From Halobacteriovorax sp. (lineage in GTDB: Bacteria; Bdellovibrionota; Bacteriovoracia; Bacteriovoracales; Bacteriovoracaceae), in NCBI GenBank assembly GCA_020048985.1, contig JAIFLR010000022.1:1-64000 (forward strand): DNA of 64,000 bases. Direction: 5' to 3'. Under the pieces are notes generated by a model. The model ran no database searches, was not told the DNA's origin, and was given only the letters and a program-made list of their open reading frames with translations. Positions 764 through 54,034 of the stretch are shown one piece after another. How positions within the stretch are numbered: position 1 is the first letter of the stretch; every line of letters begins with the position of its first letter. Made by a program: the position numbers and the translations under genes.

Positions 764-802
764 GAATTTAAGATAACTTAGTGTTAGTTCGAAATAAACT
801 TC

Positions 803-892: not shown

Positions 893-1340
893 AATCGACT
901 CTATCCCCAACTTTTTTCCGCCGACGAATATCTTAATGATTTCATGCCTTTCAGAAGATCCACTCTATAATAATAAGTCTTTCCTCCATCAAAAGTATGT
1001 CGTTGAAGGCTTATCTTGCGAGGAAATTGCAGCGCAGATTTTTTCCGCCAGAACGACTGTTTTGAAGTATCTCAAGATCCATGGAATCTCCGTCAGGGAG
1101 ACTGGAACCAACCAAAAAAGGGTAAGGGGATTAGCCTATGGGCAAAAGATCAAGGAAAGAGGTCGTGCAGAGCATAAGCGTGAACAGGATGCCATTCTTA
1201 AAATGCGTGAGTTGCGGAGCAAGGGATTTAGTTATTGGAAGATTGCAGACGTTCTGAACACAATGAAAGTGCCTACGAAGACTCGCAAAGGTAGGTGGTA
1301 TGCGAAAACAGTGCAGGCCATATTGTTAAAAAATGAATGA
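882..1340 (+). CDS. Small DNA-binding protein with two HTH-like segments; second resembles a serine-recombinase C-terminal region (paralog 1)
   Basis: EGLSCEEIAAQIFSARTTVLKYLKIHGI and LRSKGFSYWKIADVLNTMKVPTKTRKGRWYAKTVQAIL; no serine-recombinase catalytic domain; track start 855 is TTG, ATGs at 882 and 936. Confidence 0.7.
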   Translation: MGSPIDSIPNFFPPTNILMISCLSEDPLYNNKSFLHQKYVVEGLSCEEIAAQIFSARTTVLKYLKIHGISVRETGTNQKRVRGLAYGQKIKERGRAEHKREQDAILKMRELRSKGFSYWKIADVLNTMKVPTKTRKGRWYAKTVQAILLKNE

Positions 1341-3972: not shown

Positions 3973-4069
3973 AGAAATAAAAAAAGCCCAGTGGGTTAAA
4001 CTGGGCTTTTAGTATCTTTCACTTCTTTCGAAGATCAAAATTGGGGATAGGGAAAAGATGGGGTCACCA
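3973..4069. repeat. Direct repeat copy 2: tRNA-His 3' flank/terminator-like unit
   Basis: aaataaaaaaagcccagtgggttaaactgggcttttagtatctttcacttctttcgaagatc...gatggggtcacc. Confidence 0.8.
3983..4009 (-). terminator. Hairpin terminator, copy 2
   Basis: Identical AAAGCCCAGTGGGTTAAACTGGGCTTT hairpin. Confidence 0.7.
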
Positions 4070-4516
4070 TTCTACCCTATCCCCAACTATTTTCCGCCGG
4101 CCAATATCTTAATGATTTCATGCCTTTCAGAAGATCCACTCTATAAGAATAAGTTTTTCCTCCAGCAAAAATACGTCGAAGAAAGGCTCAGTTGTGAGGA
4201 AATTGCAGCACAGATTTTTTCCGCCAGAACCACAGTTTTAAAGTATCTCAAGCTTCATAACATCCCCATAAGAGAGGTTGGAAGTAATACCAAAAGGGTC
4301 AGGGGATTAGGCTATGGCAAGAAAATTAAGGCTCGAAACCTTGCTGAGCATCAAAGGGAAGTGGATGCTATCTTAAAAATGAAGGAGCTTAGGGAGAAGG
4401 GGTATAGTTACTGGAAGATCGCTGATGTCCTGAGCACGATGAAGGTGCCAACAAAGACTCGAAAGGGCAGGTGGCATGCGAGAACGGTGCAAGCCATTTT
4501 GTTAAAAAATGGATGA
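4058..4516 (+). CDS. Small DNA-binding protein, recombinase-tail-like (paralog 2)
   Basis: Near-colinear with the 882-1340 product: MGSPFYPIPNYFPPANILMISCLSEDPLY...RLSCEEIAAQIFSARTTVLKYLKLH...WKIADVLSTMKVPTKTRKGRWHARTVQAILLKNG. Confidence 0.7.
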   Translation: MGSPFYPIPNYFPPANILMISCLSEDPLYKNKFFLQQKYVEERLSCEEIAAQIFSARTTVLKYLKLHNIPIREVGSNTKRVRGLGYGKKIKARNLAEHQREVDAILKMKELREKGYSYWKIADVLSTMKVPTKTRKGRWHARTVQAILLKNG

Positions 4517-4929: not shown

Positions 4930-5574
4930 ATGAAATTTAAAATTCTCCTTTCGATGCTCGTCATGTTTTCAAGTTTAAATTCTTTTGCCGTATGGAATGG
5001 ACTAGGACTGAGTGACCTAGGTTCAGGTCGTGGATCATCGGGCAAGGGATTCTATTTCTCTCTCTCTGCTAAAGGCATGCTCGGTACAACCGCAAGTGCA
5101 GACAATGAAACCGTCGAATCTCGCAGCTCTTACGTTTATGGCGGAGAAACTGTAATTGGTATGACATTCTCATCTTTTTTAGTTGGAGTTGCTGGCGAAT
5201 ACAATCTCTGGAAACAAAAAACAAACCCTCCAGAAGTCAGTAACACAAATGCTTCTGGGACTCAAATCAACGTTGCACCTGTGCTTGGTATGGCATTAGG
5301 CGGGTTCCTTTTGACATTTAAGCCTTATCTCCATTCTACCTTTGCTTTCAGCAAAGAAGATGCCAATGGGAATGCATTATCCTACAAATCCCCCAGCTTT
5401 CCTTCATATGGGATTCAACTCAGTTACCGTCTTGGAAAAAATACTTTCATTGGTGTTGAGTACTCTAAAGTCGAATATAAAACAGCTATTAGTGACGGAG
5501 ACGAGACAACTTTGTCAGATGATGCAAAAACGACATTGAGTGGAATGGGATTAGTTTATGGCTTTAAATTTTAA
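4930..5574 (+). CDS. Outer-membrane beta-barrel protein
   Basis: Signal peptide MKFKILLSMLVMFSSLNSFA; alternating aromatic/hydrophobic strands; C-terminal GLVYGFKF. Confidence 0.65.
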   Translation: MKFKILLSMLVMFSSLNSFAVWNGLGLSDLGSGRGSSGKGFYFSLSAKGMLGTTASADNETVESRSSYVYGGETVIGMTFSSFLVGVAGEYNLWKQKTNPPEVSNTNASGTQINVAPVLGMALGGFLLTFKPYLHSTFAFSKEDANGNALSYKSPSFPSYGIQLSYRLGKNTFIGVEYSKVEYKTAISDGDETTLSDDAKTTLSGMGLVYGFKF

Positions 5575-5584
5575 GGTGAATCAA

Positions 5585-6286
5585 ATGAAACAAAATATTC
5601 TTTTTGTCTTTTTGCTTTTTATCGCTATTTCATGTGGGGAAAACGGAGGCGTGGCACCGCTTCTGACTTCCTCATGTTCAATTCCGTCCAATGGAGAAGT
5701 TCAGACGACTCTCGGCTTTACTGGGCTCAATTTGCCCTATGGAGTTGCCGTTGACAGTTCGGGATCGGTTTATGTTGTAGATTATTCCAATAATCGAGTA
5801 AAAAAACTTACTAGCAATTATGTTGTAGATTATTCCAATAATCGAGTAAAAAAACTTACTAGCAATGGAGTAGAGAGCGTTCTTGGCTTTACTGGGCTCA
5901 ACGGAGCTTCGGAGGTTGCCGTTGATAGTTCTGGATCGGTTTATGTTACAGATTATAACAATAATCGAGTAAAAAAACTTACTAGCAATGGAGTAGAGAG
6001 TGTTCTTGGCTTTACTGGGCTTTCCGGACCTATTGGAGTAGCAGTTGATAGTTCTGGATCGGTTTATGTTTCAGAATTTAACAATGATCGAGTAAAAAAA
6101 CTTACTAGCAATGGAGTAGAGAGCGTTCTTGGCTTTACTGGGCTTTCCGTAAAAAAACTTACTAGCAATGGAGTAGAGAGCGTTCTTGGCTTTACTGGAC
6201 TTTCTCTTAGTCGAGGCGTTGCTGTTGACTGTATAGGTAATGTTTATGTTTCATCTACTGGTAACAATCTAGTTGAAAAACTCTGA
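5585..6286 (+). CDS. NHL-type beta-propeller repeat lipoprotein
   Basis: MKQNILFVFLLFIAISCGENGG lipobox; repeated GVAVDSSGSVYVxDYNNNRVKKLTSNGVESVLGFTGL; ATG 5585 with upstream aaggtga. Confidence 0.75.
   Translation: MKQNILFVFLLFIAISCGENGGVAPLLTSSCSIPSNGEVQTTLGFTGLNLPYGVAVDSSGSVYVVDYSNNRVKKLTSNYVVDYSNNRVKKLTSNGVESVLGFTGLNGASEVAVDSSGSVYVTDYNNNRVKKLTSNGVESVLGFTGLSGPIGVAVDSSGSVYVSEFNNDRVKKLTSNGVESVLGFTGLSVKKLTSNGVESVLGFTGLSLSRGVAVDCIGNVYVSSTGNNLVEKL
5771..5866 (+). repeat. 48-bp perfect in-frame tandem duplication
   Basis: tatgttgtagattattccaataatcgagtaaaaaaacttactagcaat at 5771-5818 and 5819-5866. Confidence 0.95.
6092..6205 (+). repeat. 57-bp near-perfect in-frame tandem duplication
   Basis: gtaaaaaaacttactagcaatggagtagagagcgttcttggctttactgggctttcc at 6092-6148; near-identical copy at 6149-6205. 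Confidence 0.9.
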
Positions 6287-38849: not shown

Positions 38850-41162
38850 ATGAAAAATCATTTTTTAGGTCACGCGTCTCTAACGGCTGAACAGCTCGCG
38901 TCTTTGGGTGGCAAGGCCCGCAATCTTCATGTGCTTAAATTGAATGGTTTTCAGGTTCCGGCCGGGTTTATTCTGCACGGGCCTGCCAGTAGTCTGGTAG
39001 AAGCAGTCAATGAGATTGGAGGCTTTCCCGTTGCTGTTCGTTCTAGTTGCTCAATGGAGGATTTGCCCAACGCAAGTTTTGCTGGTCTGTATGAAACATT
39101 TTTATTTGTAAAAGATCTTTCGGAACTTCAGAAAACAATAGAGCTATGTTTTGAATCAAAAAAATCATCCCGAGTGAAGGACTATCTGGAAACTAAAGGC
39201 ATAAGCGCTTCTCCTGAGTCTTTATCCATGAGCGTTTTAGTTCAGAAAATGATTGATCCATTAATGGCTGGTGTGCTTTTTACACTAAATCCAATCAATG
39301 GATTTGAAGAAGAGTTTTACCTTGAATATTGCCAGGGTGTGGGCGAAAGACTTGTTTCTGGTCATGTGACGCCTTCATCTTGTTCTTTTAATATTCAGAA
39401 AAACGCCATTGAATCAGAGTTCATCAATACAGAGAAAACAAAGATTGAACCACATCTTTTATCACAACTCATTCAAGAGTCTAAAAAAATTCAGGCTTTT
39501 TTTGGAACTCCACAGGATATAGAATGGGCGATTGATAAAAATAATCAATTGCATATTCTTCAATCCAGGCCTATTACAACATTTTCCTATCGAACTGATG
39601 TCCCAGAGATGACTAATGCGGATCTGAAAGATGGTGGTATCTCTGCCAGGGTTTGTACTCGATTTATGTATTCAGCTTACCGAAATGCGATGCAGGTCTC
39701 GATGGGGGAATATTTTAAAAAAATAAATCTTATTAAATCATCAGCAGATATAACATGGATTTATAACTATTATGGACGAGTCTATTGGAACGCTGGCGCA
39801 GTTAAAGAAGGTTTGAAGCGCATTCCAGGATTTAATGAAGAGGATTTTGACCGTGATCTAGGTATTCAAAAAGATTATGGTGCTCAAGGCCCACACAAAA
39901 CGAAGCTCTCAGCTTCTACTCTGCTAAATGCTATCCCTGTGGTCATTGGACTTCATAGAGAATTCAGCGATTGTGAAAAAATGGTCGAGCATTTTAAAGA
40001 TTTGTTTGAATTTAGGGACGAGCTATTTAAAGAGAGATTAAAAAGTATTCCTAGCATGAGTCGTGAGGCATTCCATGACTGGCTACTAGGCGTGATTCAA
40101 CTCCAGATTGTGACAGAACAGAATTACTTTCGTACCATTTATAATAATTCAAATTTTCAAACAGAATTTAAAACGGCATTAAAAAAAATCAAGACCTATC
40201 AAGCCGGGGATGAACTTGAATTAATGGGAAGTCTGGCAGCCGTTTCTCATTTAAATGTCCAGGAAGATTTGTCCGTGCTCGCGCAAAAAGCGGAACTCTT
40301 TGGCATTGGTTCTGATGCGTACTTAAAGCAAAGAGATATATTTCTTTCAATTCACTACCATCATGGTCCCGCCGAACTTGATATTACTGTTCCAAGGTGG
40401 GGAGAAAATAAAGAGTGGGTCGATGAGCTTGTTCGCTCTTTTACTCCCTCGCCCCATAAAAACAGTGTTGAATTTGATAAGACTGTCGCGCGGCTAGTGG
40501 GTGGGGCAAATTTTTTCACACGAAATCGATTCAAAAAAAATCTGAGCCGATCACGAAATTTTTTAATCATCAGAGAAGAGATGCGTGCGTTCTCTACCAG
40601 GGCCTATTATCTACTTCGGTTAGGTATGCTTGAACTTGGCAAACGCCTGCAGATCCCAGATGAAGAACTTTTTATGCTTGATCTTAATGAAGTGGCGCAA
40701 ATCATAAGCTCAAATAAATTCGAGTTACCTGATTTGAAAGAGCGCCTAACTCACTACAACGCTTATCGTGGGTTCGTGTCGCCCAATGATTTTGGAGGGA
40801 CTATACTTCAGTCAACCGGCGCTATGGAGGCAGGAGCCTTTAAAGGAATTGGTTGCAGTTCAGGGGAGTTCACAGGACGGGCACGAGTCATTCTTGATAT
40901 CCATAAAACGGGTGCATTAACTAAAAATGAAATCCTCGTAACGCTATTTACTGATCCTGGTTGGACTCCCGTTCTGGCGCGGGTAGGTGGAGTGATAACT
41001 GAAGTAGGGGGTCTTCTTTCCCATGCAGCAGTGATCGGCAGAGAGTATGGGATACCAGCAATTTTAAACGTTAATGGCGCCACCAGGCTCATCAAAGATG
41101 GCAGCCTTATCAGAATAAATGGAAAAACGGGACTGATTGAAATTCTAGAAGAAAGTCCTTAA
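38850..41162 (+). CDS. PEP synthase/rifampin-phosphotransferase-like dikinase (copy A)
   Basis: LGGKARNLHVLKLNGFQVPAGF; VAVRSSCSMEDLPNASFAGLYET; swivelling His GGLLSHAAVIGREYGIPAIL. Confidence 0.8.
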   Translation: MKNHFLGHASLTAEQLASLGGKARNLHVLKLNGFQVPAGFILHGPASSLVEAVNEIGGFPVAVRSSCSMEDLPNASFAGLYETFLFVKDLSELQKTIELCFESKKSSRVKDYLETKGISASPESLSMSVLVQKMIDPLMAGVLFTLNPINGFEEEFYLEYCQGVGERLVSGHVTPSSCSFNIQKNAIESEFINTEKTKIEPHLLSQLIQESKKIQAFFGTPQDIEWAIDKNNQLHILQSRPITTFSYRTDVPEMTNADLKDGGISARVCTRFMYSAYRNAMQVSMGEYFKKINLIKSSADITWIYNYYGRVYWNAGAVKEGLKRIPGFNEEDFDRDLGIQKDYGAQGPHKTKLSASTLLNAIPVVIGLHREFSDCEKMVEHFKDLFEFRDELFKERLKSIPSMSREAFHDWLLGVIQLQIVTEQNYFRTIYNNSNFQTEFKTALKKIKTYQAGDELELMGSLAAVSHLNVQEDLSVLAQKAELFGIGSDAYLKQRDIFLSIHYHHGPAELDITVPRWGENKEWVDELVRSFTPSPHKNSVEFDKTVARLVGGANFFTRNRFKKNLSRSRNFLIIREEMRAFSTRAYYLLRLGMLELGKRLQIPDEELFMLDLNEVAQIISSNKFELPDLKERLTHYNAYRGFVSPNDFGGTILQSTGAMEAGAFKGIGCSSGEFTGRARVILDIHKTGALTKNEILVTLFTDPGWTPVLARVGGVITEVGGLLSHAAVIGREYGIPAILNVNGATRLIKDGSLIRINGKTGLIEILEESP

Positions 41163-42335
41163 GGCCATACCAACGTCAGTTGTGACTAACTTCTGGGCCG
41201 GGTTTTCAATCGTGTCACCCTTGGCCAGAGGAATATAGGCAAAAATCTCGAATTCAGTACTGTGCCCAAGATCTATTTTATTTTTGGTAATGAAATAGGT
41301 AAATCCAGATTTAAGATCATTAACAACTGTTCCACCTAATTGCACCAGAGGGTGGATGTCATATTGTGCGGCGATTGCCAGAAAATATTCAATTGGAAGG
41401 AAGCGATCATTAATTGAACCTGCGGTTACGTACCGATTTTGTTTTTGGTAACCTGATTCACCTCTTAGATGAAAAGTGTTACTTAATTGCTGGTCATAGC
41501 CCAGCAGTACATCCCATAAAGGATGTGATTCTGTATCATCAGTATAATCTGTTTGGTAAAGTGTCTGCATAAAGAGCATTGCTTCAGAGAAACTGTACTC
41601 TAATTGACCACCAAGTTTATGTCGGTTTTGGTCTTCTCCGATAACGAAATCTGCCTGGAAATCATTCGTCACTTGATATTCACCATGGGCCCAAAGAGTT
41701 CGATCTATTTGCCCCTCATAACCTTCTAGGCTTTTATCACCAAGAAAATAAAAATCTACAGTGTATTTATCGTTAACAAAAAAAGTGAAATTAAGTCCAT
41801 CATTCCCCTGTGCCACCTGAGAAATAGAGGTCAAGGCAGTTGGCTGATTAAATGGATTGATGGGATTGAAGACTTCACCCAAACCATAATTAATATAGAT
41901 TCTTCCTGCCATGAAACGATTTTCATCATAGTCCCATTCGTAATACAGTTTATTCAAAATGTATTCAGTTCGGTAGTTTTCACCTTCCTCAATGTGTTGG
42001 AGCTTGAAAACATCTCTTGCCACTAACTTGTTGGGATATGTATAGATAATTGGCGCCAGGTATGGAGCCTCATAAAGATCTGATCTGCTGTGTCTGCCAA
42101 AAAGATTGGCCTCTAATTTTGAATTTTTAAATTTAACTTTTCCATTTAAATTACCATAGACGAGGTAAAAATCTTCTTCGTCCCAATTCTGGGCTAGATC
42201 TTCTTTTGCCAACTCATTGTTCCAGGAATGCCTGCCCTGGACTTCCATGTTACCTGAAACTTCGCTGTCAATTTTCGATTGTGACCAGCCCTGAAGACTT
42301 TGCAAAAGAATAAATAAGCAAAAAAATGATTTCAT
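41145..42335 (-). CDS. Outer-membrane beta-barrel-like protein
   Basis: Signal peptide; alternating strands; terminal VGMALRTFF. Confidence 0.6.
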   Translation of the reverse strand: MKSFFCLFILLQSLQGWSQSKIDSEVSGNMEVQGRHSWNNELAKEDLAQNWDEEDFYLVYGNLNGKVKFKNSKLEANLFGRHSRSDLYEAPYLAPIIYTYPNKLVARDVFKLQHIEEGENYRTEYILNKLYYEWDYDENRFMAGRIYINYGLGEVFNPINPFNQPTALTSISQVAQGNDGLNFTFFVNDKYTVDFYFLGDKSLEGYEGQIDRTLWAHGEYQVTNDFQADFVIGEDQNRHKLGGQLEYSFSEAMLFMQTLYQTDYTDDTESHPLWDVLLGYDQQLSNTFHLRGESGYQKQNRYVTAGSINDRFLPIEYFLAIAAQYDIHPLVQLGGTVVNDLKSGFTYFITKNKIDLGHSTEFEIFAYIPLAKGDTIENPAQKLVTTDVGMALRTFF

Positions 42336-43078
42336 TAATAGTCCGTTAAGTTCTTATGGGTGAAGTGGTCAGATTTAAAGTTCGTTTTAAATGACAAGTT
42401 TTTGTAATGAATGGTGGTCTTTTTATTTTTGTCATCCTGGGGTTGCATCACCCAATTGGTGGGCACCTTGTGGCCATCAAACGTTTTGATATCATCGAGA
42501 AATAAAATCCGCTTTAACTTATTTTGTTTGTCAAAGTAGTGATACTCCCTAGGAAGACAATCCACTGGGGATGCGTAGGTAATAATTTTAGGCCACATAA
42601 CCTTGGCGTCACTCTTGGCAGTGTTTTCGATCACTCGATAGGTAGTTGCACCTTTCTTTAGGTCGGCCAGAAATTTATGACTATAATCTTCTGCCATAGA
42701 TGAGGCTTTTAAAATATCATCGTTCGTAAAATCAGATCCCATCCAACTGGCCAGGAGCATAGAGGATGAAACAGCTACTTTACGTTTAAGTTTAGGAAAG
42801 TAATTCCACATATTATTTTCTATGCGTAAAGTTCGGATGCCCTTTTCTTTTGCAGGGGACTTAATTGTGCTTAAGGCGAGTTTTTTTCCCTCTACATCAG
42901 ATTCAATCTCAAGAGTTCTCTCCCAGTTAGGTGTCTTAATAGACATAACGATTTCAGCACGAGACCTATCACCGCGCATTTGTTTTTCAGCAAATTTCGC
43001 CCATTCCTCAGCATTATTAGAGTTCGAGCCGATTGCCAGACATAAGACAATATCTTTTCTGAAAAGTTTTTTAAACAT
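42335..43078 (-). CDS. LolA-like outer-membrane lipoprotein-sorting protein
   Basis: NWERTLEIES...MWNYFPKLKRKVAVSSSMLLASWMGSDFTNDD pattern typical of the family. Confidence 0.75.
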   Translation of the reverse strand: MFKKLFRKDIVLCLAIGSNSNNAEEWAKFAEKQMRGDRSRAEIVMSIKTPNWERTLEIESDVEGKKLALSTIKSPAKEKGIRTLRIENNMWNYFPKLKRKVAVSSSMLLASWMGSDFTNDDILKASSMAEDYSHKFLADLKKGATTYRVIENTAKSDAKVMWPKIITYASPVDCLPREYHYFDKQNKLKRILFLDDIKTFDGHKVPTNWVMQPQDDKNKKTTIHYKNLSFKTNFKSDHFTHKNLTDY

Positions 43079-43760
43079 TATGCACCCTCGATTCACTGAT
43101 TTGACCGTCCTTAACGTAAAGGACAGTGCGAACTTGATCTATTAAACGCTGATCATGAGTTGAAAAGATAAACGTTAATTTAAATTCTTTATTTAATTTC
43201 AAAAAGAGTTCTATGATTTCTTGAGCTGTTTTTGAGTCCAGGTTTGCTGTTGGCTCATCTGCCAGAATCAGCTGTGGCCTTCCTGCGATGGCGCGGGCAA
43301 TTGAAACCCGCTGTTGTTGTCCTCCAGAGAGTTGGCTCGGAAATCGATTTCCCAACTTCTCCAAACCAACCTGAGTAAGGGCCCATTCGACTCTTTCTTT
43401 TATTTCTTTTTTACTGAACCCCTTCAGTTGGAGGGGAAATTCTATATTTTCAGCAGCAGTCAAAATAGGCAGAAGTTGGTAGTCCTGAAATACAAATCCC
43501 ATATAGTCAAGTCGATGCTTTGTCCTCTCTTCAAGAGACATTGAAGTAATATCCTCTCCCCCGTGCTTTAGAGAACCCGCCGTGGGAAGTATTAAGCCTG
43601 CAATTAAATTGAGAATAGTGGTCTTTCCCGAACCTGAAGGACCAACCAATGCCATAAATTCAGCTTCTGGAATTTTAATGTTTACGTTTTTTGCTCCGTA
43701 GACCTTAATCTCCTCGGAGCTTTCGTAGACTTTATCTACATGTGAAAGTTCAAACTGCAT
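43071..43760 (-). CDS. ABC transporter ATP-binding protein (LolD/MacB-like)
   Basis: [39 protein letters not shown]. Confidence 0.92.
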
Positions 43761-44958
43761 TCTTGCTCCTGCGAATCACTCTGATTAAAGGGTAAATCAT
43801 GGTGAGTATAAGAAAAAAATAAATCATCAAAGGTACTTGCCAATAATATTGTGGAACTGAGTAGATCCTGACTAGTGGGGCTATGGTTATCCCCCCCATT
43901 ATGATGGGTTTGCCGCCAGTGAAGATCTCAATATTGATTGGGTAGTAGTTGAAATAGGTCGTTGCTGCGAAGCCAAGGAGGGCGCCTATGAAGACAGCAA
44001 TAGTTCCCATCACAAAGACTTCAACCATGAGTGAGGCCGTAATCCAGCTTGTCTGAGCACCTATGATGTTCAGACTTGTAAATTCCTGTTCTCTTTCAAA
44101 AAAAGTAATCATCAGCGTATTGGATAGACCAAGACTGACTACTACTACAATGATAATACTTACTATCCACGTGAAATTATCAATAAACCTCACTGAAACA
44201 CCAATCTCAGGAAGAAGTTCTGTCCATTTAGATATTTCATGATTTTTTAGGGATAAAGGGATCTCAGAATCCATATCAAAGCTGACCCGTTGGTGGTATT
44301 TCTCCAATGGCATTGCCAGTAATTCCTGCGCTGATTGTAATTGGGTAAAGGCCAGGGATTCTTCCAGATCGCCCCCACCAAAATCAAGGACACCGACGAC
44401 TGTGAAGAGGTCATTGGCAATTGATCCGTCAATTGCCTGGCCAACTGTTGCGACTTGTTCTCCGACTTTGACGTTTATTCTTTTCGCAAATTTTTTACCT
44501 AAAATAATTTCTTTGTCGCCGGCTTCAGCTAAAAAACGGCCTTCTGATATTGCTTTATAAAGAGTAGAGATTTTCTTTTCTTTCACAACATCGAGACCTG
44601 TTAGAAGCACTCCAAGAGTTTTTTTCTCTCCTGAAATGAAGACTGGGGCATTCACTCTTTTTGTAGAAAGTTGAATAAGGTCTTTTTCTTCAAGTTCAGC
44701 ATCGGACATAGTCTTATAGAGGTTAAATTCTTTCTTGTTGTGATCATCATAAAAGTCAGGATGAGTGATGTGGTAATTTCCTGCATACTGCGAAAGGAAT
44801 TCCTTCATCATTTCTTTAGAGCCGGAGTTTGCGAAGTTTAAATCCCAAATAATGAATCCACAGCCCAGGCTTAAACTCAAAATCATTATGAGCGTGCGCC
44901 TTGGAACTCTAAAAAGATTTCGGTAACTGAATTTTACAAGGTAAGCAAAACCACTCAT
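43750..44958 (-). CDS. FtsX/LolC-like ABC permease
   Basis: N-terminal TM, large periplasmic domain, LGLSNTLMITFFEREQEFTSLNIIGAQ motif. Confidence 0.85.
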   Translation of the reverse strand: MSGFAYLVKFSYRNLFRVPRRTLIMILSLSLGCGFIIWDLNFANSGSKEMMKEFLSQYAGNYHITHPDFYDDHNKKEFNLYKTMSDAELEEKDLIQLSTKRVNAPVFISGEKKTLGVLLTGLDVVKEKKISTLYKAISEGRFLAEAGDKEIILGKKFAKRINVKVGEQVATVGQAIDGSIANDLFTVVGVLDFGGGDLEESLAFTQLQSAQELLAMPLEKYHQRVSFDMDSEIPLSLKNHEISKWTELLPEIGVSVRFIDNFTWIVSIIIVVVVSLGLSNTLMITFFEREQEFTSLNIIGAQTSWITASLMVEVFVMGTIAVFIGALLGFAATTYFNYYPINIEIFTGGKPIIMGGITIAPLVRIYSVPQYYWQVPLMIYFFLILTMIYPLIRVIRRSKNAV

Positions 44959-46187
44959 GGTGCAACCTCAAGCTTTTTTAATGTTCGATGAATTGCCCAG
45001 AGGTAGCTAATGGTCAGAACAATAATTACAAAAATAAAGGTAACGAGGAGTTGTTCGACGGTTAATTGTGGGAAAATTACGTTTGGAAGTTTAATTCCTG
45101 CCCTTTCAATTGAAACACCCTTGTTTAGAAATCTAAAATCGACTCCTGTATAAGACTGAATTCCAATGATGACAATTAAGAACACGCTGGAGAGGACCCC
45201 GGAAGATATGATCATTTGAATTAACTCAAAAATACCTATTTTCCAAAACTTTCGACTGGAAACTCCCAGGATGTTTAACATTTTGAGTTCTTTTAAGCGC
45301 TCCTGCCAAAGCATCTGAACTGGAGTCAGAATTGTCATAGTGATGGTCATACCAATAATCAGAAAAAAGAATCTGATCATTCCATCGTGGAATTCAAGAA
45401 CTACCGCCATTTCAGGATTGAGATTTTTCCAGGTTTTAAAATCGAGGTTAGTCGTTTTTATCCTCTGCGAAATTACCGGCCCGTCTTTTAGACCGTTTGC
45501 CATGATTACAATACGATTGAATAAGATTGAGTTTTTATCTTCATTAAAGAAAAGTTTTTGCCACGTTTTTTGGTTGATGTAGACGTATCTTTTTTCAAAA
45601 GCATTACTGCTGAATTTGTAGATACCCTTTATGAGCAGTAACTCCGACCTCAGCTCGCCTTTCACGTCCTGGTAGTTTAAAACGATTTGGTCACCGACTT
45701 TAAATAAAAAAAGCTTCGCTAGCTCCTGCCCAATAAGAACCGTCCCCTCATCATTAGTTTCAATGAAGCTTCCCTCTTTAATCCTCTTATGAATAGGTAG
45801 AAAGGTTTGATGCAGGGGAGGATGTATGCCAATGACTGTCAGGCCAGTAGACCCCTCAGGAGTGGATATATTTCCATCCAAAACGAGTTCCGGTGAATAA
45901 CTTTTTATAGGTGGGGTCAAAAGTTTCGAATAGGAATCAAAAGCTAAAGGTGTCGAACTATCTGTAGACTTTGAATAGTTCAACTCTTGAAGTTGAAAAT
46001 AACCAGTGTTTGTGCTTACAACGGCTTTTTCTATTTGATGGTTGAGGCCATCAAAAAATGCGACTACCCAGACAGCAATAAAAACCGCTAAAGAAACGGA
46101 AAAGCCGATAAAAAAACTTCGACCAGAATTTCGTCGAATGCTTTTCCAGGCAAATTTGAAAAGATATGAATTTTCGTCATTCAGCAT
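44955..46187 (-). CDS. FtsX/LolC-like ABC permease
   Basis: Same topology; QERLKELKMLNILGVSSRKFWKIGIFEL. Confidence 0.85.
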   Translation of the reverse strand: MLNDENSYLFKFAWKSIRRNSGRSFFIGFSVSLAVFIAVWVVAFFDGLNHQIEKAVVSTNTGYFQLQELNYSKSTDSSTPLAFDSYSKLLTPPIKSYSPELVLDGNISTPEGSTGLTVIGIHPPLHQTFLPIHKRIKEGSFIETNDEGTVLIGQELAKLFLFKVGDQIVLNYQDVKGELRSELLLIKGIYKFSSNAFEKRYVYINQKTWQKLFFNEDKNSILFNRIVIMANGLKDGPVISQRIKTTNLDFKTWKNLNPEMAVVLEFHDGMIRFFFLIIGMTITMTILTPVQMLWQERLKELKMLNILGVSSRKFWKIGIFELIQMIISSGVLSSVFLIVIIGIQSYTGVDFRFLNKGVSIERAGIKLPNVIFPQLTVEQLLVTFIFVIIVLTISYLWAIHRTLKKLEVAP

Positions 46188-46198
46188 ATAATCTTCTT

Positions 46199-46759
46199 AT
46201 GGCTTCCACTTTAATTAGTATAGATGACATTCAACGGATTTTGCTTTTGGCATTGCCCCTCGTAATTGGAGGCATTTCCCATATGATTGTCGTAAAGACT
46301 GATATCTTATCTTACTTTAAGAAACCGATTCATCATAGATGGTTTGGGACGAACAAAACTTGGCGTGGATTTTTGATCATGCCTGTGGCGACCTGGCCGG
46401 GCATTCACGTTGCACAGAGCATCGAGAAATTGTTAGATTTAAGTACTCCACTATTTGTTGGAAGCTCCAGTTTATTTTTGGCCTTCATTTTGGGGACAGC
46501 CTATTGCCTGGCCGAGCTCCCCAATTCCTTCCTTAAAAGACGACTAGGCATAAAAGAAGGGATGACCTCAGATAAATTCAAAATATTATTTATCATTTTA
46601 GACCAGGCCGATTCCGCTATTGGGTGCCTAATCGCCTACAAATTGTACTTGAATATCCCCTGGAATATCTTTTGGGGCACAATTGTCTTTGGGACTGGCA
46701 TTCATCTTTTTTTTAACGTCCTTCTTTATGGCCTCAAAATTAGAAAAAACCCCTTTTAG
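46199..46759 (+). CDS. CDP-archaeol synthase-like/CDP-alcohol cytidylyltransferase-like membrane protein
   Basis: HHRWFGTNKTWRGFLIMP; SFLKRRLGIKEGMTSD; LDQADSAIG; ATG 46199. Confidence 0.7.
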   Translation: MASTLISIDDIQRILLLALPLVIGGISHMIVVKTDILSYFKKPIHHRWFGTNKTWRGFLIMPVATWPGIHVAQSIEKLLDLSTPLFVGSSSLFLAFILGTAYCLAELPNSFLKRRLGIKEGMTSDKFKILFIILDQADSAIGCLIAYKLYLNIPWNIFWGTIVFGTGIHLFFNVLLYGLKIRKNPF

Positions 46760-46767
46760 GAAAACCT

Positions 46768-47643
46768 ATGCTAAAGCGGCTTGCAATTTATTTAAATGAA
46801 ATGTTTCCAATCACGTCGTTTATTGGAACACTCCTAACAGCTTTTGCTATACAGCTTTCCTACCTTCGACTATTTTCCAATCCAACCAAATTCCATTACC
46901 AAATGTTACTGTCTGGGATCGTCATCACTGCCGTGACTCTACTGATTCGAATAATGGATGAATTCAAAGATTTTGAGGACGATAAGAGAAATTTCCCTAA
47001 TCGACCATTGCCCTCCGGCAAGGTTCACAGTTCAGACTTGAAAGTATTGGCCTTTGTATGTGTAGCCCTAATACTCTTGCTTAGTCTGACGAGCATAAAT
47101 CTTTTTATCTTTTCGCTTATAACTCTTGGGTATACGCTCCTCATGCTCAAATGGTTTTTTATAGAAAATAAAATGCGCCAGAGCCTTCCTCTTGCTTTTT
47201 TATCTCACCACCCGATTGTTATTTTTAATGTGGTCTATTTACTACTGGGAATGATTGAAACTTTTAGTGATCTAGATTGGAGTAAAGCGTACCTAGTTCT
47301 TCCAGTTGCTCTCATTTTTACTAACTGGGAAATCGCCAGAAAAATTCGATCTCCAAAGGATGAGACGGCCTATACAACCTATTCAAAAATCTGGGGACCG
47401 AGAGTCGCTATAGCTGTCAGTATCCTATTGCAAATGGCCTATACGACGTCGGTGAGTTTGATTTTTATTCATTTAGGAACTCCGGTATTTCTTAGGACGG
47501 TCTTTCTCGTTTTTATGCTCATCATGATGATTCCTTCTGCCCGTTTTCTTATAGACCTGAAGTTTAAGGCACCACTTAAGACCAATGCTGAAAGCCAGAT
47601 ACTGTTAATTCTAGGGTTTTTGGTTGCAGCATGCTTTTTATGA
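46768..47643 (+). CDS. UbiA-family prenyltransferase
   Basis: IRIMDEFKDFEDDKRNFPNRPLPSGKV Asp-rich motif; multi-TM. Confidence 0.75.
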   Translation: MLKRLAIYLNEMFPITSFIGTLLTAFAIQLSYLRLFSNPTKFHYQMLLSGIVITAVTLLIRIMDEFKDFEDDKRNFPNRPLPSGKVHSSDLKVLAFVCVALILLLSLTSINLFIFSLITLGYTLLMLKWFFIENKMRQSLPLAFLSHHPIVIFNVVYLLLGMIETFSDLDWSKAYLVLPVALIFTNWEIARKIRSPKDETAYTTYSKIWGPRVAIAVSILLQMAYTTSVSLIFIHLGTPVFLRTVFLVFMLIMMIPSARFLIDLKFKAPLKTNAESQILLILGFLVAACFL

Positions 47644-50009
47644 AAGTCATATATCAGGCCCATGAATTGGCGCCAGTTGCGGAAGTTGGTGGTAAAGGTC
47701 ACCATCTTCAAAAGCTTGTTGGTTGGGGAGCTCAGGTCGCTCCATTTTTTGTTATTGGTACTCGTTCCGAGGGGATAATAGATTCTGCTATTAAAAATGA
47801 AATTGAAAAATTTTTAAAGATCTACCCGCGAATTGTTTTAAGAAGTTCAATGATTGGTGAAGACCACCTGGATGCCAGCTTTGCTGGACTATTTGAAACG
47901 ATCTTAGGGGTGGAAATACATAATTGGGAAGAATGTTTAAAGAAAATTTATTCATCTTTGAATTCTCCCCGTGTTCAAAACTACATTACTCAAAAGAATA
48001 TTCAGCACCAACTAAAAATGGCCGTGGTCGTTCAGCAAGAGATTCAAGTTGAAAAGAGCGGCGTGCTATTTACCAGGGCCCCAGTCCCTCCGACCTCGGC
48101 CATTGCCATTGATGCAGCATGGGGAATGGGGGAAGGTGTTGTCTCGGGTTTGGTTGATATTGACCATTATCTTTTGACCCGCTTAGGGGAGATGATCGAA
48201 GGTTCAGAAAACAAGGTCCTTAAACAAGGTGAATTAGACGAGTTGGTTAAAGAAAGTCTCCGACTTGAGGCACACTTCAAGAGTCCAGCCGATATAGAGT
48301 GGGGAATTAAGGATGAGAAACTCTACATCTTTCAGATAAGACCCATAACAAGATCATTTTCCCCAATTAAAGTATTGGCCGACACCAATCTATCCGAATC
48401 CTACCCGGGCTCAGTCAGCCCCTTTACAGCTGGCTTTGTTATTCGTGCCTATGAAAATGTATTCATGGAAGCCGCTCATATTCTGGGTTTTAGTAGAGAC
48501 CGTTTAAGTTTATTGAGAAACCATTGTGGGCATTTAATTTCCTGTGTTGATGATCATCTCTATTACCACCTGGAGCACTATTATGCCGTTCTTCGGGGCT
48601 TACCTGGAGGAGAGAAGAATATTGAGAACTGGCATAAAATGATAGGAGGCAAAGTGGAAGGAGCGACAGTTCCTTATCATGAAACTCGACTTTCTGCTTT
48701 TGATTTTGTGAATTCAGTTTTTCGTCTAATCTCATACGCCATAAAGAAAAAACGGATTTATCCCCGTTTTATAAAAGATCTGGAGTCCCTTTCAAGTTCA
48801 ATAACCCATGATATGGGAGGCTTGAAAACGTCACACCAGACCATTCAGTATCTGTGTCAACTGATGGATAGGCCCCTGGGATTTGGTCTCACAATCATAA
48901 ATGATTTTTTTATCATGGTCGGCCTGGGACTTTTAACTTCTCGGTTTAAAAAAAGAGGTTTAAAAGAAGACATAATTATAGATCTGCTTAAAACTTCTAA
49001 CAGTTTAGATTCAGTTAAACCCCTGGAAGCGTTCAATCACCTTGTTCAAGAGTTACCCGAGAGCTTTATGGATGAGTTTGATAAAATGCTAACTCCTACA
49101 GGGTTCTCACCATACGAGCATGCTTTCTCTCAGTTGTCTCAAAAGGGTTGGAGTAAGGAAGTCAAATCCTTAGAGGGATTTTTAAATCTTTACGGAGACA
49201 GATCGTTTGAAGAACTCAAACTAGAAAGTTTGCCCCTCAAAAATGATCCCGATCTTTTTAAGAAGTTAGTTCGTTGGGGAAAACAAAATAGAACAATAGA
49301 TAATCCTCATATAAAGAATCCGGTTCAGATCGAATTAAATGTTATTGATTCAATAGTATTGAAATTTACGAGGGACTGCATTGAATTCAGGGAAACAACA
49401 CGGCTATGGCGTGGAAAATTCTATCATTTTTTACGAATTCTGCTGATAAAACTCGCCGATCAACTAATTAAAGAAAATCCTGTGTTTCATAAATATAACC
49501 TGAGAGATTTTTTTTCCATTAATCATCATGAATGGAAACGTTTCGCCGAAAATAAATTAACTTCAGTGGAAGTTTGTTCATTGATTGAATCAAGGCATCG
49601 GGAAAACAAACACCAGAATTATCCGGAATTTGTATGCTGGAGTGATGATGAGAAACTGCCACGGTTTCATACCCCTTCCATTTCAGGTGAATATCTCAAA
49701 GGCCAAGGAGTTTCTCCTGGAGTTGTGGAAGCTTTAGCCTTGGTGCTGGAAAATCCTACAGAGATTCTGGGCCAAGAGATGGATAGTTTTATTCTTGTGA
49801 CCAAAAACACTGATCCTGCTTGGATTTATATTATGTCGAGAAGCAAGGGATTGATCTCAGAAAAAGGATCAATGCTAAGTCATACGGCTATAATTGGCAG
49901 AGAGCTTGGTATCCCCACACTTGTTGGAGTAAAATCTGCCACTCAACAAATAAAAACCGGAGATCGATTGCGTATTGATGGGTCAACTGGAAAAGTAGAG
50001 ATTTTATGA
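47631..50009 (+). CDS. PEP synthase/rifampin-phosphotransferase-like dikinase (copy B)
   Basis: VGGKGHHLQKL; VLRSSMIGEDHLDASFAGLFET; GSMLSHTAIIGRELGIPTLVGV. Confidence 0.8.
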   Translation: MLFMKVIYQAHELAPVAEVGGKGHHLQKLVGWGAQVAPFFVIGTRSEGIIDSAIKNEIEKFLKIYPRIVLRSSMIGEDHLDASFAGLFETILGVEIHNWEECLKKIYSSLNSPRVQNYITQKNIQHQLKMAVVVQQEIQVEKSGVLFTRAPVPPTSAIAIDAAWGMGEGVVSGLVDIDHYLLTRLGEMIEGSENKVLKQGELDELVKESLRLEAHFKSPADIEWGIKDEKLYIFQIRPITRSFSPIKVLADTNLSESYPGSVSPFTAGFVIRAYENVFMEAAHILGFSRDRLSLLRNHCGHLISCVDDHLYYHLEHYYAVLRGLPGGEKNIENWHKMIGGKVEGATVPYHETRLSAFDFVNSVFRLISYAIKKKRIYPRFIKDLESLSSSITHDMGGLKTSHQTIQYLCQLMDRPLGFGLTIINDFFIMVGLGLLTSRFKKRGLKEDIIIDLLKTSNSLDSVKPLEAFNHLVQELPESFMDEFDKMLTPTGFSPYEHAFSQLSQKGWSKEVKSLEGFLNLYGDRSFEELKLESLPLKNDPDLFKKLVRWGKQNRTIDNPHIKNPVQIELNVIDSIVLKFTRDCIEFRETTRLWRGKFYHFLRILLIKLADQLIKENPVFHKYNLRDFFSINHHEWKRFAENKLTSVEVCSLIESRHRENKHQNYPEFVCWSDDEKLPRFHTPSISGEYLKGQGVSPGVVEALALVLENPTEILGQEMDSFILVTKNTDPAWIYIMSRSKGLISEKGSMLSHTAIIGRELGIPTLVGVKSATQQIKTGDRLRIDGSTGKVEIL

Positions 50010-51124
50010 GCCTGTCAATAAGTCAATTCACAACTTGGGATGATGTGAAAATAGAAGTTTTTATTAAGTTTAAAGAAAAGATGCAAAGCAATTTGCCTAC
50101 ATACTTTCCCGAAACGATAGAAGACTATAAAAAATTTCTCCATCCTAGTTCTGCCTTTGCCAATGATTACCAATGGAGTGGATTCCTTGTTCATGAAAAT
50201 AATGTGGTAGTTGGTAAAGCCATCCTGACATGGCGAAATGGATCGAGGGTAGGTAATCTTGGTTTTATTGATTGGGAAAACAAACCTTCGGTTGCGTTGT
50301 TGCTGACGAATAAGATCGAGGCTTATGCCAAAACAATGAATCTGAGAGAAATTAAAACGCCAGTTGATATGAACTTTTTTGTCCGCTACAGGATCAAATG
50401 CAAGGGCGGCGGTGCTCCTTATTATGGTGAACCTATTTACCCTGATTATTACCACGATTTATTTAAAGTGGCGGGTTATAAAGTTGTTGGAACATGGGAT
50501 ACTTACCTGGTGAAAAGATTTAGTACCTTCACTAATCTCATGAAAAAAAGAAAAAAGCTTAAAGAGCGCCACCATCCATTTTATGATCAGGTTAAAGTTC
50601 GATTTATCAAAGTTTCTGACTGGGATAATGAAATCAGGATTGTACATCGTTTGTTTATGGAGTCTTTTTCCGGCATGCCTGAGTTTGAGCCTATCACTTT
50701 TGAGCAGTTTAAACTTGTCTATGATGACTTTAAATATTTAATTCATCCCCTCCTTTCTTATATTGTTGAACTTGATGGAGTGCCTGTAGGTTTTAGCATT
50801 AACTATCCAGATCCCCTGGAAATACTTTCTAAAATTAAATATAAAAAAGTATCAAAACTTGGAAAACTTTTGCTTCTCGCAAAACTAAGATTGAATTTTA
50901 AGACGCTCCTCATGCCTTATATGGGAAAGACCAAGGGTCCTCGTGGTGAAGAAGTTAAAGGAGTATTTCTTAAAATATCGAAAATGTTGACCTGTGGCGT
51001 GGTGGTGGCCAATAGGGGACTCATCTGTTATCAGAGCCCAGATTCTCCATCAAAAAGACCTATGGATCCCGAATTGGTTGAGGAATATGCCAAATATGTT
51101 TTGTATGGAAAAAACCTAGAGTGA
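50006..51124 (+). CDS. GNAT-like acyltransferase-fold protein
   Basis: FLVHENNVVVGKAILTW and YIVELDGVPVGFSINYPD GNAT-like segments; translationally coupled to 47631-50009. Confidence 0.45.
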   Translation: MSLSISQFTTWDDVKIEVFIKFKEKMQSNLPTYFPETIEDYKKFLHPSSAFANDYQWSGFLVHENNVVVGKAILTWRNGSRVGNLGFIDWENKPSVALLLTNKIEAYAKTMNLREIKTPVDMNFFVRYRIKCKGGGAPYYGEPIYPDYYHDLFKVAGYKVVGTWDTYLVKRFSTFTNLMKKRKKLKERHHPFYDQVKVRFIKVSDWDNEIRIVHRLFMESFSGMPEFEPITFEQFKLVYDDFKYLIHPLLSYIVELDGVPVGFSINYPDPLEILSKIKYKKVSKLGKLLLLAKLRLNFKTLLMPYMGKTKGPRGEEVKGVFLKISKMLTCGVVVANRGLICYQSPDSPSKRPMDPELVEEYAKYVLYGKNLE

Positions 51125-54034
51125 AATAGCAGTTTTATTTTTGCCAAGGATAAAACCTGCTTCTCCAGCGATGCCTTCAACCTCTAAAACGATGTCTTTG
51201 TTTAGGTCACCGATGTTAAGAAAGTTTTTCTTTCCGCTGAAGCCGATTGAAAATGTTTCTGCCATACATGCATAACTTTCATTTTTCCCTAAAGGAAAAA
51301 GTATGCAGTTAAGGGACTGGTCCTTAGGAAACTGTGCAATTCCACCCAGGTGATACGTAAGATCAGATCTGGTTAAAGCGATCTGATTTAAAAGTTCTTT
51401 TTTGATCGTTGGTGGGACCGCAATATCAACTATAACGGCATTTTGCTTAAACAAATCCAGAGTTAAAAATCCTGTAGAAGAACTAGTGCCACTCAAAACG
51501 ACGTCGGCTTCTGCTATTGATGTGAGATCAGAGGTTGCAACGAGAACTTCTTTTACCACCGGAATTTCCATGAAGCTAAGTAGATTCATGTCTTTTTTCC
51601 AGTAAGTTTTAATAACATCCACGACTTTGGAAGTAGCGGAAGAATTTGCTATCTCGTTTAATATTCTTTTCATCGCCTCTTGAAATTTGTTGCTGGTCTC
51701 TAGTGGAGAATGATGAATAAGAATCACCTTGCCAACCTTGTCTGCCATCATACTTGTGGCAACAGACATAATATTTCCGGCAGCACCAATGAGGGCCACC
51801 GTTGAATTTGGCAGGTTGGTCCCTTTTTCTTCAACAGATCTTAGGGCCGCTTGAATGGTCAGTGATATGGTATAGGCGTTTCCGGTCGTTAGATTCATTC
51901 CGCGTGGATCCAGGTAAAGTCCGTTACCTGAAACAATCGAAGTGAATTGACCAAGGCCTACAGTCGTTGCACCCAATTCTTTGGCGTAATCAATGGCATT
52001 TTGGACTTTCTTAACGACCTTATATTTATTTTTACTTACGAAGGTTTTCTTTAATTCCTCAGAGGTCATTGGTACTCCCAGCATGATGAAGTCCATCTCC
52101 TGGTTATTTTTATCACAAAATACTTGATGATGATAAATTTCAAATTCAGCAAGATCCTTTGTGAGTGTCAGTTTTTCAACCAGCTTATGATCTGGAAGTT
52201 GTTTGAGGGCCTTAGTTGTATTTCGAATATGCCCTTCATTAATCATATGACACAAAAAGACAGTGAGTGGTCTTTTTCCCAAATCTGCTTTTTCAACTAA
52301 ATCGGCTGTTCTGGTATTCTGGATGGTTTCGCCTGGGTAAATGGCAGAGAGGAAGTATTTTACGTCCTGGTTTTGAAGGGCCGTGCACATTCTAAAAAGT
52401 CCACCGATCATCTCTTCAGCTTGAACAATATTGAAATAAAGACTTGGCTGAATTCTTAAGGTGAGGTTATTTGATAACGATGGGTTCATGCGAAGATTTT
52501 CGTGATTTAAGAGTCCGGCAGCAACCAGGTACCCTTGCATCTTACTGTCACATATCAATTTAAACTCAAATCCCATATCGCGAAAGATAGTCGCTTCAAA
52601 TTCCATCGCAAGAAATAGACCTTTGCCTCGTATTTCTTTTATGATTTCGGGAAATTGTGATTTTAACCATTCAAGTCGGCCTCGTAAGAACTCAGCTGTT
52701 TCCATGCCTGATTTTAATGGTGACTCTTCTGATTCAAGAATATTCAGTACTTCAAGGGCAATGAGTGATGAGAAATCATCTTCTGCAAAAGTCGAACTAT
52801 GAAGAAACCCAAAGTCATCAATGTATTTTCTTTTAAGTATGGTAGTTGCAGCAATTTTGGCGATCCCGCCGCCAAGTGATTTTGAAAAAGTGTATACATC
52901 TGCGGTTATATGGCTGTGATTTCCAGCCGCCATCAGTCCAGTGCGAAACATTCCCGATTGAATTTCATCGAAAATAAGCAGGAAACTTTCTTGAAGGGAG
53001 AATTTTTTTAAGATAGCGAGCGTTTGAGATGGGACTTCAATTACACCAGCCTCGCCCTGAATTGGCTCTGCAAATGCTCCCGCAACCAGCGAGAACGCGT
53101 GCTTCGTTACGACGATTCCTTGCGGGCCTCCAGCGATAAAAATGAGGTCTTGTCTGGTGTCCTCGATTACTTTTTCTAGTGTTTCCAGGTCATCATGTGC
53201 TGAAATGAAAATAGTTTGAGTATTAAACTCGTCACCTAGAAAAAAATCATTTCGAAAATTCTCATTGCTGGTTATTGAAAGGGCTCCCAAGGTTTTGCCG
53301 TGGTAAGCTTTTTTAAGTGAAATAAACTTTGGCCGCTGACTTATTTGAAGGCTATTAATTTCACGCAAGAGACTTACCAGGCTATCTATTTCATGAGTAT
53401 TGGCGAGTTGATGAAGAAGGTAGCTTCTTCGCTCCTCACTCATTCTTAATTCATCCGTTTTATTTATAATTTCAGTTTTGAGTTTGAGAAGAATCTTTCT
53501 TTGAAGGGCAGGCTCAGATCTGCGAACTTTAATCAGGGCCTGATTCATTTCTTTTTCAATTTCTTGGGATATATCTGTCAACTTATGCTTGAAGTGAAGT
53601 TGCGAGTGCTTAATCGCCGCTTCTACTGCTTCTGTGCCTGAGTTAGAGAAATTCGTTACCCAAGGCCCTTCCGAGGTTTCACGTTGCAATATTTCTGATA
53701 GTCTTTTCGCAAGCTCACCAGACGCTTTTCTTTGACTCCCCTGAGTCATTGAAGGGGCGCCATTGGCATTCCATTCGCTCAAAGCATTAAGTAATCGCGG
53801 GTGACGGTGACCAAGTAGGTTTGAGCCGTAGCCACCCGTTAAGTCCAATACCCTTTGTGTCTTTTGATTTTGATCATAATAAAGATAGTCACCCTGGCCT
53901 CTTGTGTATGCCTTGGCCAAGTTCATAGCTTCCAGAAGTCTGGCCGTTAGGGGGCGAGCATACACAGCATAGTCATCTGTTGCATTTTCATGCTTCTTTT
54001 TAAGATGTTCGTTTAACCCTGGCAATATGCTCAT
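51116..54034 (-). CDS. Class III aminotransferase fused to acyl-ACP-reductase (AAR)-like domain, 972 aa
   Basis: N-terminus LDLTGGYGSNLLGHRHP, FSNSGTEAVEAAIK, LIFDEIQSG, TFSKSLGGG; C-terminus LGQFTSIV, LTTGNAYT, VALIGAAGNIMSVATSMM, ESYACMAETFSIGFSG. Confidence 0.75.
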   Translation of the reverse strand: MSILPGLNEHLKKKHENATDDYAVYARPLTARLLEAMNLAKAYTRGQGDYLYYDQNQKTQRVLDLTGGYGSNLLGHRHPRLLNALSEWNANGAPSMTQGSQRKASGELAKRLSEILQRETSEGPWVTNFSNSGTEAVEAAIKHSQLHFKHKLTDISQEIEKEMNQALIKVRRSEPALQRKILLKLKTEIINKTDELRMSEERRSYLLHQLANTHEIDSLVSLLREINSLQISQRPKFISLKKAYHGKTLGALSITSNENFRNDFFLGDEFNTQTIFISAHDDLETLEKVIEDTRQDLIFIAGGPQGIVVTKHAFSLVAGAFAEPIQGEAGVIEVPSQTLAILKKFSLQESFLLIFDEIQSGMFRTGLMAAGNHSHITADVYTFSKSLGGGIAKIAATTILKRKYIDDFGFLHSSTFAEDDFSSLIALEVLNILESEESPLKSGMETAEFLRGRLEWLKSQFPEIIKEIRGKGLFLAMEFEATIFRDMGFEFKLICDSKMQGYLVAAGLLNHENLRMNPSLSNNLTLRIQPSLYFNIVQAEEMIGGLFRMCTALQNQDVKYFLSAIYPGETIQNTRTADLVEKADLGKRPLTVFLCHMINEGHIRNTTKALKQLPDHKLVEKLTLTKDLAEFEIYHHQVFCDKNNQEMDFIMLGVPMTSEELKKTFVSKNKYKVVKKVQNAIDYAKELGATTVGLGQFTSIVSGNGLYLDPRGMNLTTGNAYTISLTIQAALRSVEEKGTNLPNSTVALIGAAGNIMSVATSMMADKVGKVILIHHSPLETSNKFQEAMKRILNEIANSSATSKVVDVIKTYWKKDMNLLSFMEIPVVKEVLVATSDLTSIAEADVVLSGTSSSTGFLTLDLFKQNAVIVDIAVPPTIKKELLNQIALTRSDLTYHLGGIAQFPKDQSLNCILFPLGKNESYACMAETFSIGFSGKKNFLNIGDLNKDIVLEVEGIAGEAGFILGKNKTAISL

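Follow-up and report, generated by a model that had tools for sequence, protein, structure and literature searches.

There are few natural fatty-amine synthases, and such enzymes are sought as biocatalysts. One of them is PtTamH from the tambjamine YP1 system of Pseudoalteromonas tunicata; working in vitro together with PtTamA, which loads the ACP, it turns a C12 acid into the corresponding aldehyde and then into the C12 amine (PMC9594044). PtTamH is a protein of ~950 aa combining an N-terminal class III aminotransferase (TA) with a C-terminal acyl-ACP reductase (AAR) domain that bears a catalytic cysteine; we located it in the P. tunicata genome as a 941 aa protein with K340 and C887, matching the published values. 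KecF, from the koreenceine system, and the PpKTFusion/Tm/Ts/Tf proteins are likewise TA-AAR fusions with a mapped AAR cysteine (PMC6498172, PMC10829540), and PigE of the prodigiosin system joins an AAR and a TA with conserved cysteine in one chain (PMC8341465).

The window, a stretch of 64,000 nucleotides from a Halobacteriovorax sp. contig, codes for a further, divergent member of this enzyme kind, which is known from antibiotic pathways. A sequence-only reading had described the gene as a possible fatty-amine synthase, and its observations were borne out. The ORF is present and intact (Table 1), with the class III PLP motifs FDEIQSG and SKSLGGG at residues 355-361 and 384-390, and all the C-terminal motifs that it had listed are found (LGQFTSIV, LTTGN, VALIGAAGNIMS and ESYACMAETFSIGFSG). 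The cyanobacterial AAR motifs that it had quoted (LGGFTSII, FTTGN, VAVVGATGDIGS and MFACFAEAMLLEFEG) are those in PDB 6jzu/6jzq, and the cysteine that it had picked out, Cys923, aligns with chain residue 294 of AAR (PDB 6jzu); PDB 6jzz, which has a serine at the Cys294 position, scores lower. The proposed activity also finds support, in that a TA followed by an AAR with the catalytic cysteine is the architecture of PtTamH. What falls away is its presentation as a possible discovery, as the enzyme belongs to the published kind that includes PtTamH, KecF, PpKTFusion and PigE.

The likeness of the fusion to the TA and AAR families is far beyond chance: the TA domain matches PF00202 (Pfam, E=1.4e-54), and the C-terminal domain matches AAR with E=4.6e-5 in a single-sequence phmmer search and 2.6e-26 with a profile, and the N-terminal half of PigE with 6.5e-34 (profile). 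CrmG is the best PDB match of the full-length AlphaFold2 model (Foldseek, TMt 0.83), in which the TA domain has a CrmG-like fold; because aminotransferases dominated this search, the AAR part was assigned from the sequence profile. A scan for promoters and terminators around the gene was uninformative.

The gene-cluster context of the fusion was absent from the sequence-only reading. The fusion gene closes a conserved cluster of 11-12 genes, syntenic in the genus (Bacteriovoracaceae) and in genome G029. The tandem GNAT protein has no Pfam match; its AlphaFold2 model (mean pLDDT 85.7) finds as best Foldseek matches the tandem GNATs 2wpw (4.7e-12) and 7q3a (5.6e-12). PPDK2 displays an ATP-grasp, a middle domain and a C-terminal phospho-His domain, with SMLSHTAIIGRE as the catalytic His motif, and PPDK1 has the three-domain architecture and the His. 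Motifs are conserved in the UbiA homologue (the Asp motif DEFKDFEDD) and in the CarS-like protein (NKTWRG, ELPNSFLKR and DQADS). The P450 usual in the genus cluster is cleanly absent from that of the window, which also contains no PSD (phosphatidylserine-decarboxylase) gene.

Table 1. Features of the fusion protein and its gene cluster in the window
Feature	Position	Strand	Description
TA-AAR fusion, TamH/KecF type	51116..54034	-	972 aa, intact ORF
Fusion, TA part	residues ~20-545		class III aminotransferase, PLP-Lys385
Fusion, linker	residues ~546-578		
Fusion, C-terminal part	residues ~579-972		acyl-ACP-reductase-like, Cys923 (codon 51266-51268, minus strand)
Tandem GNAT-fold protein	50006..51124	+	372 aa; candidate N-acyl/aminoacyl transferase
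PPDK2, Rph/PigC-type phosphotransferase	47631..50009	+	PF01326 8e-41, PF00391 8e-24
UbiA-family prenyltransferase homologue	46768..47643	+	PF01040 1.1e-8, NCBIfam PRK13592 1.4e-40
CDP-archaeol-synthase (CarS)-like membrane protein	46166..46759	+	PF01864 2.1e-9
FtsX/LolC-like ABC permease	44955..46187	-	PF12704 7e-12
FtsX/LolE-like ABC permease	43750..44958	-	PF12704 + PF02687; TIGR02212 LolCE 2.6e-19
LolD-like ABC ATPase	43071..43760	-	TIGR02211 3.6e-60, under curated cut-off
LolA-like periplasmic protein	42335..43096	-	PF17131 3.6e-43
Putative outer-membrane protein	41145..42335	-	no family match; conserved in synteny
PPDK1, Rph/PigC-type phosphotransferase	38850..41162	+	PF01326 4e-47, PF00391 1e-22

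Parts of a core made up of fusion, PPDK, UbiA, CarS and GNAT turn up again in no fewer than four further Bdellovibrionota families and in one Riflebacteria genome, there as UbiA-PPDK1-fusion. Among 14 loci chosen by the presence of the fusion alone (L147-L160), a PPDK-type gene lies near it in 10, UbiA in five, and CarS and GNAT in two each. PPDK1 is the commonest fusion neighbor across the phylum; in the tree its clade takes in Riflebacteria and four non-Bacteriovoracaceae families, and PPDK2 forms its own clade across families. A PSD-like gene adjoins the module in five loci, and the gene by the module is a second genomic copy in G502, G583 and G607; the three cluster-bearing Bacteriovoracaceae genomes examined (G000, G016 and G029) have one PSD each, located elsewhere. 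DAGK_cat lipid kinases occur at L152 and L156, and an AurF-type N-oxygenase at L157.

These recurring partners mark a conserved and apparently undescribed gene set, of which we found no report in the open-access literature. The repeated association of the fusion with UbiA, CarS-like, two PPDK-type, GNAT and PSD-like genes suggests that predatory-type bacteria have a so far unreported pathway to an amine-containing lipid, and we propose that the fusion is the fatty-amine branch of this polar-lipid pathway. Judged from sequence, it is probable that the protein is a fatty-amine synthase of the TamH kind feeding a conserved pathway, with an amine-containing polar lipid as the likeliest product. 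Gene content and co-occurrence suggest the steps after the amine: as an intermediate, it could be N-acylated by the tandem GNAT; the two PPDK-like phosphotransferases and the CarS-like CTP-dependent enzyme would supply activated phosphate/CDP intermediates; the UbiA homologue would attach a further lipid chain; and the LolCDE/LolA-like system would carry the product to the outer membrane. We put forward more tentatively, as a possibility that we hold somewhat doubtful, that these activities (fatty-amine formation, GNAT N-acylation, UbiA-dependent chain attachment and PPDK/CarS-like activation), together with a dedicated PSD-like finish in some lineages and outer-membrane export in Bacteriovorax, give Bdellovibrionota and certain other bacteria an undescribed class of phospholipid derived from an amine. 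Sphingophosphonolipids are known for Bacteriovorax stolpii, and we considered such a product; the window cluster contains no recognizable gene for a serine palmitoyltransferase or for phosphonate. Identity with the myxobacterial elb-type ether-lipid cluster was rejected because the gene content differs.

The window and tam clusters have in common a PPDK-type enzyme (PPDK1 versus TamQ, 24%, 1.4e-53), two FtsX permeases, an ABC ATPase (42%) and a LolA-like protein (29%, 1.4e-33), besides the fusion itself (a low identity to PtTamH, 31% over the TA and 25% over the AAR domain) and the putative outer-membrane protein, whose similarity to its tam equivalent is weak (E=0.001). The cluster is also patchy and decaying in relatives, with fusion remnants in G020 and G001, as secondary-metabolite clusters are. 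The product could hence be a tambjamine-like small molecule, formed by a TamQ/PigC-like PPDK condensing the amine with a UbiA/P450-made carbonyl partner, that leaves the cell as an antibiotic or pigment instead of becoming part of a lipid; we regard this outcome as rather unlikely. The tam proteins with window-cluster matches are only TamQ, the exporter, TamH and a second ABC transporter; the bipyrrole (MBC) genes, the prolyl-AMP ligase and its carrier protein, TamA and TamT find no match among the window-cluster proteins. Moreover, exporters of the LolCDE/LolA type are generic, the PPDK tree does not group TamQ with PPDK1 with support, leaving its placement unsure, and PPDK1, which reaches 236 bits on the PigC model against a cut-off of 1300, obtains equally high scores with the Rph and PEP-synthase-like models. 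Conversely, the window cluster has components that tam does not: UbiA, the CarS-like protein, a second PPDK, the tandem GNAT and, among its relatives, a P450. The CarS-like and PSD neighbors point to lipids.

As to the reaction feeding the proposed lipid pathway, it is very probable that the window protein makes a fatty amine from an activated fatty acid, and homology supports a two-domain mechanism. In the AAR domain, the fatty acyl group would move from acyl-ACP onto Cys923, and NAD(P)H would reduce the resulting thioester to the aldehyde; the PLP domain at the N-terminus (Lys385) would receive this aldehyde and, with L-Glu for example as amino donor, convert it to a primary long-chain amine. 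Housekeeping acyl-ACP is assumed as the acyl donor because no ACP, adenylation domain or ketosynthase is encoded within the window cluster itself. An AAR domain that has lost its reductase activity or uses another thioester (e.g., a cluster-specific acyl chain), which would make the protein mainly an aldehyde transaminase, appears improbable. The nucleotide-binding (Rossmann) motif GxxGxxG, kept by PtTamH, reads G750AAG753NIM756 in the window fusion, with Met756 for the third glycine; the reductase activity of KecF/PpKTFusion was inferred rather than measured (PMC10829540), and acyl-CoA is not accepted by PtTamH (PMC9594044). However, the third glycine is a variable feature within the TA-AAR fusion kind. 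We searched genome contigs with an AAR-domain profile; in 35 fusions from many phyla, the position is occupied by G, C, I, M, V or L. Many Bdellovibrionota fusions have the glycine replaced (C, I, V or L in those other than the window fusion), and the Riflebacteria one has C. D356, Q359, K385, S699 (the FTSI Ser), N719 (the TTGN Asn), G750, G753, C923 and E926 are invariant in 35/35, and several of these fusions also lack the third glycine. Within the genus, the AAR domain is conserved over its full length, as is the TA domain.

We give very little credence to unrelated neighbors around a stand-alone fatty-amine synthase, with the genus synteny merely due to descent: Rhodobacterales fusions do lie outside any such cluster, and Bdellovibrionota loci L149, L152, L158 and L160 have no PPDK or UbiA within the stretch fetched, but the same gene types adjoin the fusion in several families and the Riflebacteria genome in varying order and orientation, so shared descent of one local order fails as an explanation, and the recurring PPDK1 and PPDK2 neighbors fall in orthologous clades.

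The fusion family thus adds dozens of divergent putative fatty-amine synthases and shows which residues are truly invariant, and the natural losses in G020 and G001 offer ready-made comparisons for cluster-positive relatives. Among known systems, the window CarS-like and UbiA proteins belong to the superfamilies of archaeal CarS and DGGGP synthase and keep their motifs, but score far below the curated equivalog cut-offs for the archaeal ether-lipid enzymes (the CarS-like protein has 57.5 bits against 148 for PRK04032). The Pseudomonas KecF/PpKTFusion proteins sit in ketosynthase/ACP clusters making tetrahydropyridine alkaloids, and such genes also adjoin the fusion in Photobacterium, UBA3532, Desulfobacterales and Xenorhabdus; in the fusion tree, proteins from these clusters branch separately, and a koreenceine-type pathway was rejected because the window cluster has no ketosynthase/ACP genes. 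The PigE model is the best NCBIfam match for the whole fusion (NF053554, 250.7 bits, under the curated cut-off of 850), but PigE has the reverse domain order and makes the MAP precursor. The cyanobacterial long-chain acyl-ACP reductase (PDB 6jzu/6jzy) is a homologue of the C-terminal domain, its Cys294 corresponding to Cys923, with the window fusion scoring 36.2 bits on the AAR equivalog TIGR04058, under the cut-off of 449.7; unlike the fusion, it is a stand-alone enzyme coupled to an aldehyde-deformylating oxygenase.

The ORF called in the sequence-only reading is intact and carries every motif quoted there. As that reading had it, the N-terminus (~545 residues) is a class III aminotransferase (TA) domain (PF00202, E=1.4e-54), with CrmG, putrescine aminotransferase and PigE as its closest solved relatives, and the final ~394 residues match cyanobacterial acyl-ACP reductase (AAR), with E=4.6e-5 in a single-sequence search and E=2.6e-26 with a 12-row profile. 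The latter also recovers the N-terminal half of PigE (E=6.5e-34). The proposed equivalence of Cys923 with the AAR catalytic cysteine holds, this residue aligning with chain residue 294 of the AAR entry PDB 6jzu; a second AAR entry, PDB 6jzz, has a serine there and scores lower. The AlphaFold2 model of the whole fusion (17 sequences; mean pLDDT 82.7) has CrmG as its top PDB match (TMt 0.83). We aligned 35 fusions with this TA-AAR architecture, drawn from Bdellovibrionota, Pseudomonadota, Gemmatimonadota, Nitrospirota, Planctomycetota, Riflebacteria, Myxococcota, Verrucomicrobiota and other groups. All share D356, Q359, K385, T415, S699, N719, G750, G753, C923 and E926, and variation in the GxxGxxG motif is limited to the third glycine (Met756 in the window protein). 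Given this invariance of the catalytic residues, an inactive reductase domain is unlikely, and homology supports a predicted conversion of acyl thioester to aldehyde and then amine.

Coordinates of the fusion, its related loci and other features of the window
Feature	Location	Strand	Remarks
TA-AAR fusion	window 51116-54034	-	972 aa
Cys923 codon	window 51266-51268	-
PPDK2 stop/GNAT start overlap	window 50006-50009
Peptidase S51 (dipeptidase E type) joined to GNAT domain	window 1597-2805	-	402-aa ORF
Two short near-duplicate proteins	window 855-1340 and 4058-4516	+	3 kb apart; weak Recombinase-domain match
NHL-repeat protein	window 5558-6286	+	repeats almost identical; apparent internal duplications
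Second, paralogous lipid-type cluster, window genome (G000:C98)	L130:650-17867
Fusion remnant, G020	L133:9327-9557		aa 156-232
N-terminal fusion fragment, G001	L042:8325-9323
AurF-type N-oxygenase gene	L157:2910-3845		between PSD-like gene and PPDK2
Rhodobacterales fusions	L048:14935-17523; L049:11641-14346		~860-900 aa

Some ten genomes from the genus, plus one (G029) from a different genus, keep the synteny around the fusion as far as contigs extend; their named records are Bacteriovoracaceae, some labelled Bacteriovorax stolpii. The order is PPDK1, a putative outer-membrane protein, a LolA-like protein, an ABC ATPase, two FtsX permeases, a CarS-like protein, a UbiA homologue, PPDK2, a P450, a tandem GNAT and the fusion. 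The P450 is absent without a scar from the window and genomes G007, G024 and G020, and there the PPDK2 stop overlaps the GNAT start. G020 keeps the cluster with its fusion reduced to a remnant, and G001 keeps the exporter and a fusion fragment—natural knock-outs in which much of the remaining cluster survives. The UbiA Asp motifs, PPDK catalytic His and CarS-like motifs are all conserved; hence, these proteins are probably active enzymes. The GNAT has no Pfam match; its AlphaFold2 model (pLDDT 85.7) matches tandem GNATs, with N-myristoyltransferases ranking lower.

In a search across the phylum, 37 of the 369 Bdellovibrionota genomes proved to carry the fusion. Among 14 divergent loci retrieved with the fusion as sole criterion, 10 have a PPDK-type gene in the vicinity (L147, L148, L150, L151, L153-L157, L159), five have UbiA (L150, L151, L155, L157, L159), two a CarS-like gene (L151, L159) and two the GNAT (L150, L157). 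As the window genome has six PPDK-type genes in 3.25 Mb, we estimate that a randomly chosen site has about a 4% chance of lying within 10 kb of one, with the caveat that lineages are not independent. PPDK1 and PPDK2 form distinct, well-supported clades, each spanning families; the former takes in a sequence from Riflebacteria, encoded in a trio of UbiA, PPDK1 and the fusion. A phosphatidylserine decarboxylase (PSD)-like gene adjoins the module in L151, L153, L155, L157 and L159; it is a second genomic copy in G502, G583 and G607, and in G500 another such copy lies ~15 kb from the fusion. DAGK_cat lipid kinases occur in L152 and L156, and the AurF-type gene of L157 suggests N-oxidation of an amine. 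Rhodobacterales fusions are shorter and lie outside such a cluster, near VPLPA-CTERM sorting-domain genes, with exosortase genes also in L048.

The window genome's second, related cluster has its own ABC/FtsX/LolA exporter and putative outer-membrane protein, a BtaA-like DUF3419 protein, a GNAT, a PPDK2-like protein, an AMP-binding-UbiA fusion (760 aa), a P450, a 677-aa AAR-like protein, a thioester-reductase-type SDR and a DAGK. It has reductases and lacks a transaminase, so that one cluster may yield an amine-based and the other a non-amine version of a single product class. Beyond the observed domains, residues, synteny and co-occurrence, we consider it likely that the fusion is a fatty-amine synthase feeding the window cluster. 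By inference, the GNAT would N-acylate, PPDK/CarS would activate the lipid, UbiA would add a chain, and the product, exported to the outer membrane, would be a polar lipid and not an alkaloid of the tambjamine kind. That the whole is an amine-phospholipid pathway is possible but less likely than not.

The tambjamine (tam) cluster of Pseudoalteromonas tunicata (gene names as in PMC6667630) has counterparts of PPDK1 (TamQ, PPDK type), the fusion (TamH) and the exporter's LolA-like protein, ABC ATPase and two permeases, and its putative outer-membrane protein is weakly similar to that of the window; LolCDE-type exporters being widespread, this resemblance is weak on its own. Compared with the tam locus, the window cluster has no counterpart of the bipyrrole genes, TamA or TamT. 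With ACP-loading PtTamA, PtTamH converts C12 acid via the aldehyde to C12 amine and does not accept acyl-CoA (PMC9594044). We located the locus in genome G303, its fusion being 941 aa with K340 and C887 at the published positions. In a quick tree, the fusions of Bdellovibrionota form their own branch (support 91), which also holds that of a single MAG labelled Proteobacteria and outside which TamH and koreenceine-type fusions fall. PtTamH and the window fusion share the order TA then AAR, which is reversed in PigE (PMC8341465). Given these precedents, together with KecF (PMC6498172) and PpKTFusion with three thermophilic fusions (PMC10829540), all TA-AAR fusions of the PtTamH kind, the window fusion is, as an enzyme, one more member of an already known kind.
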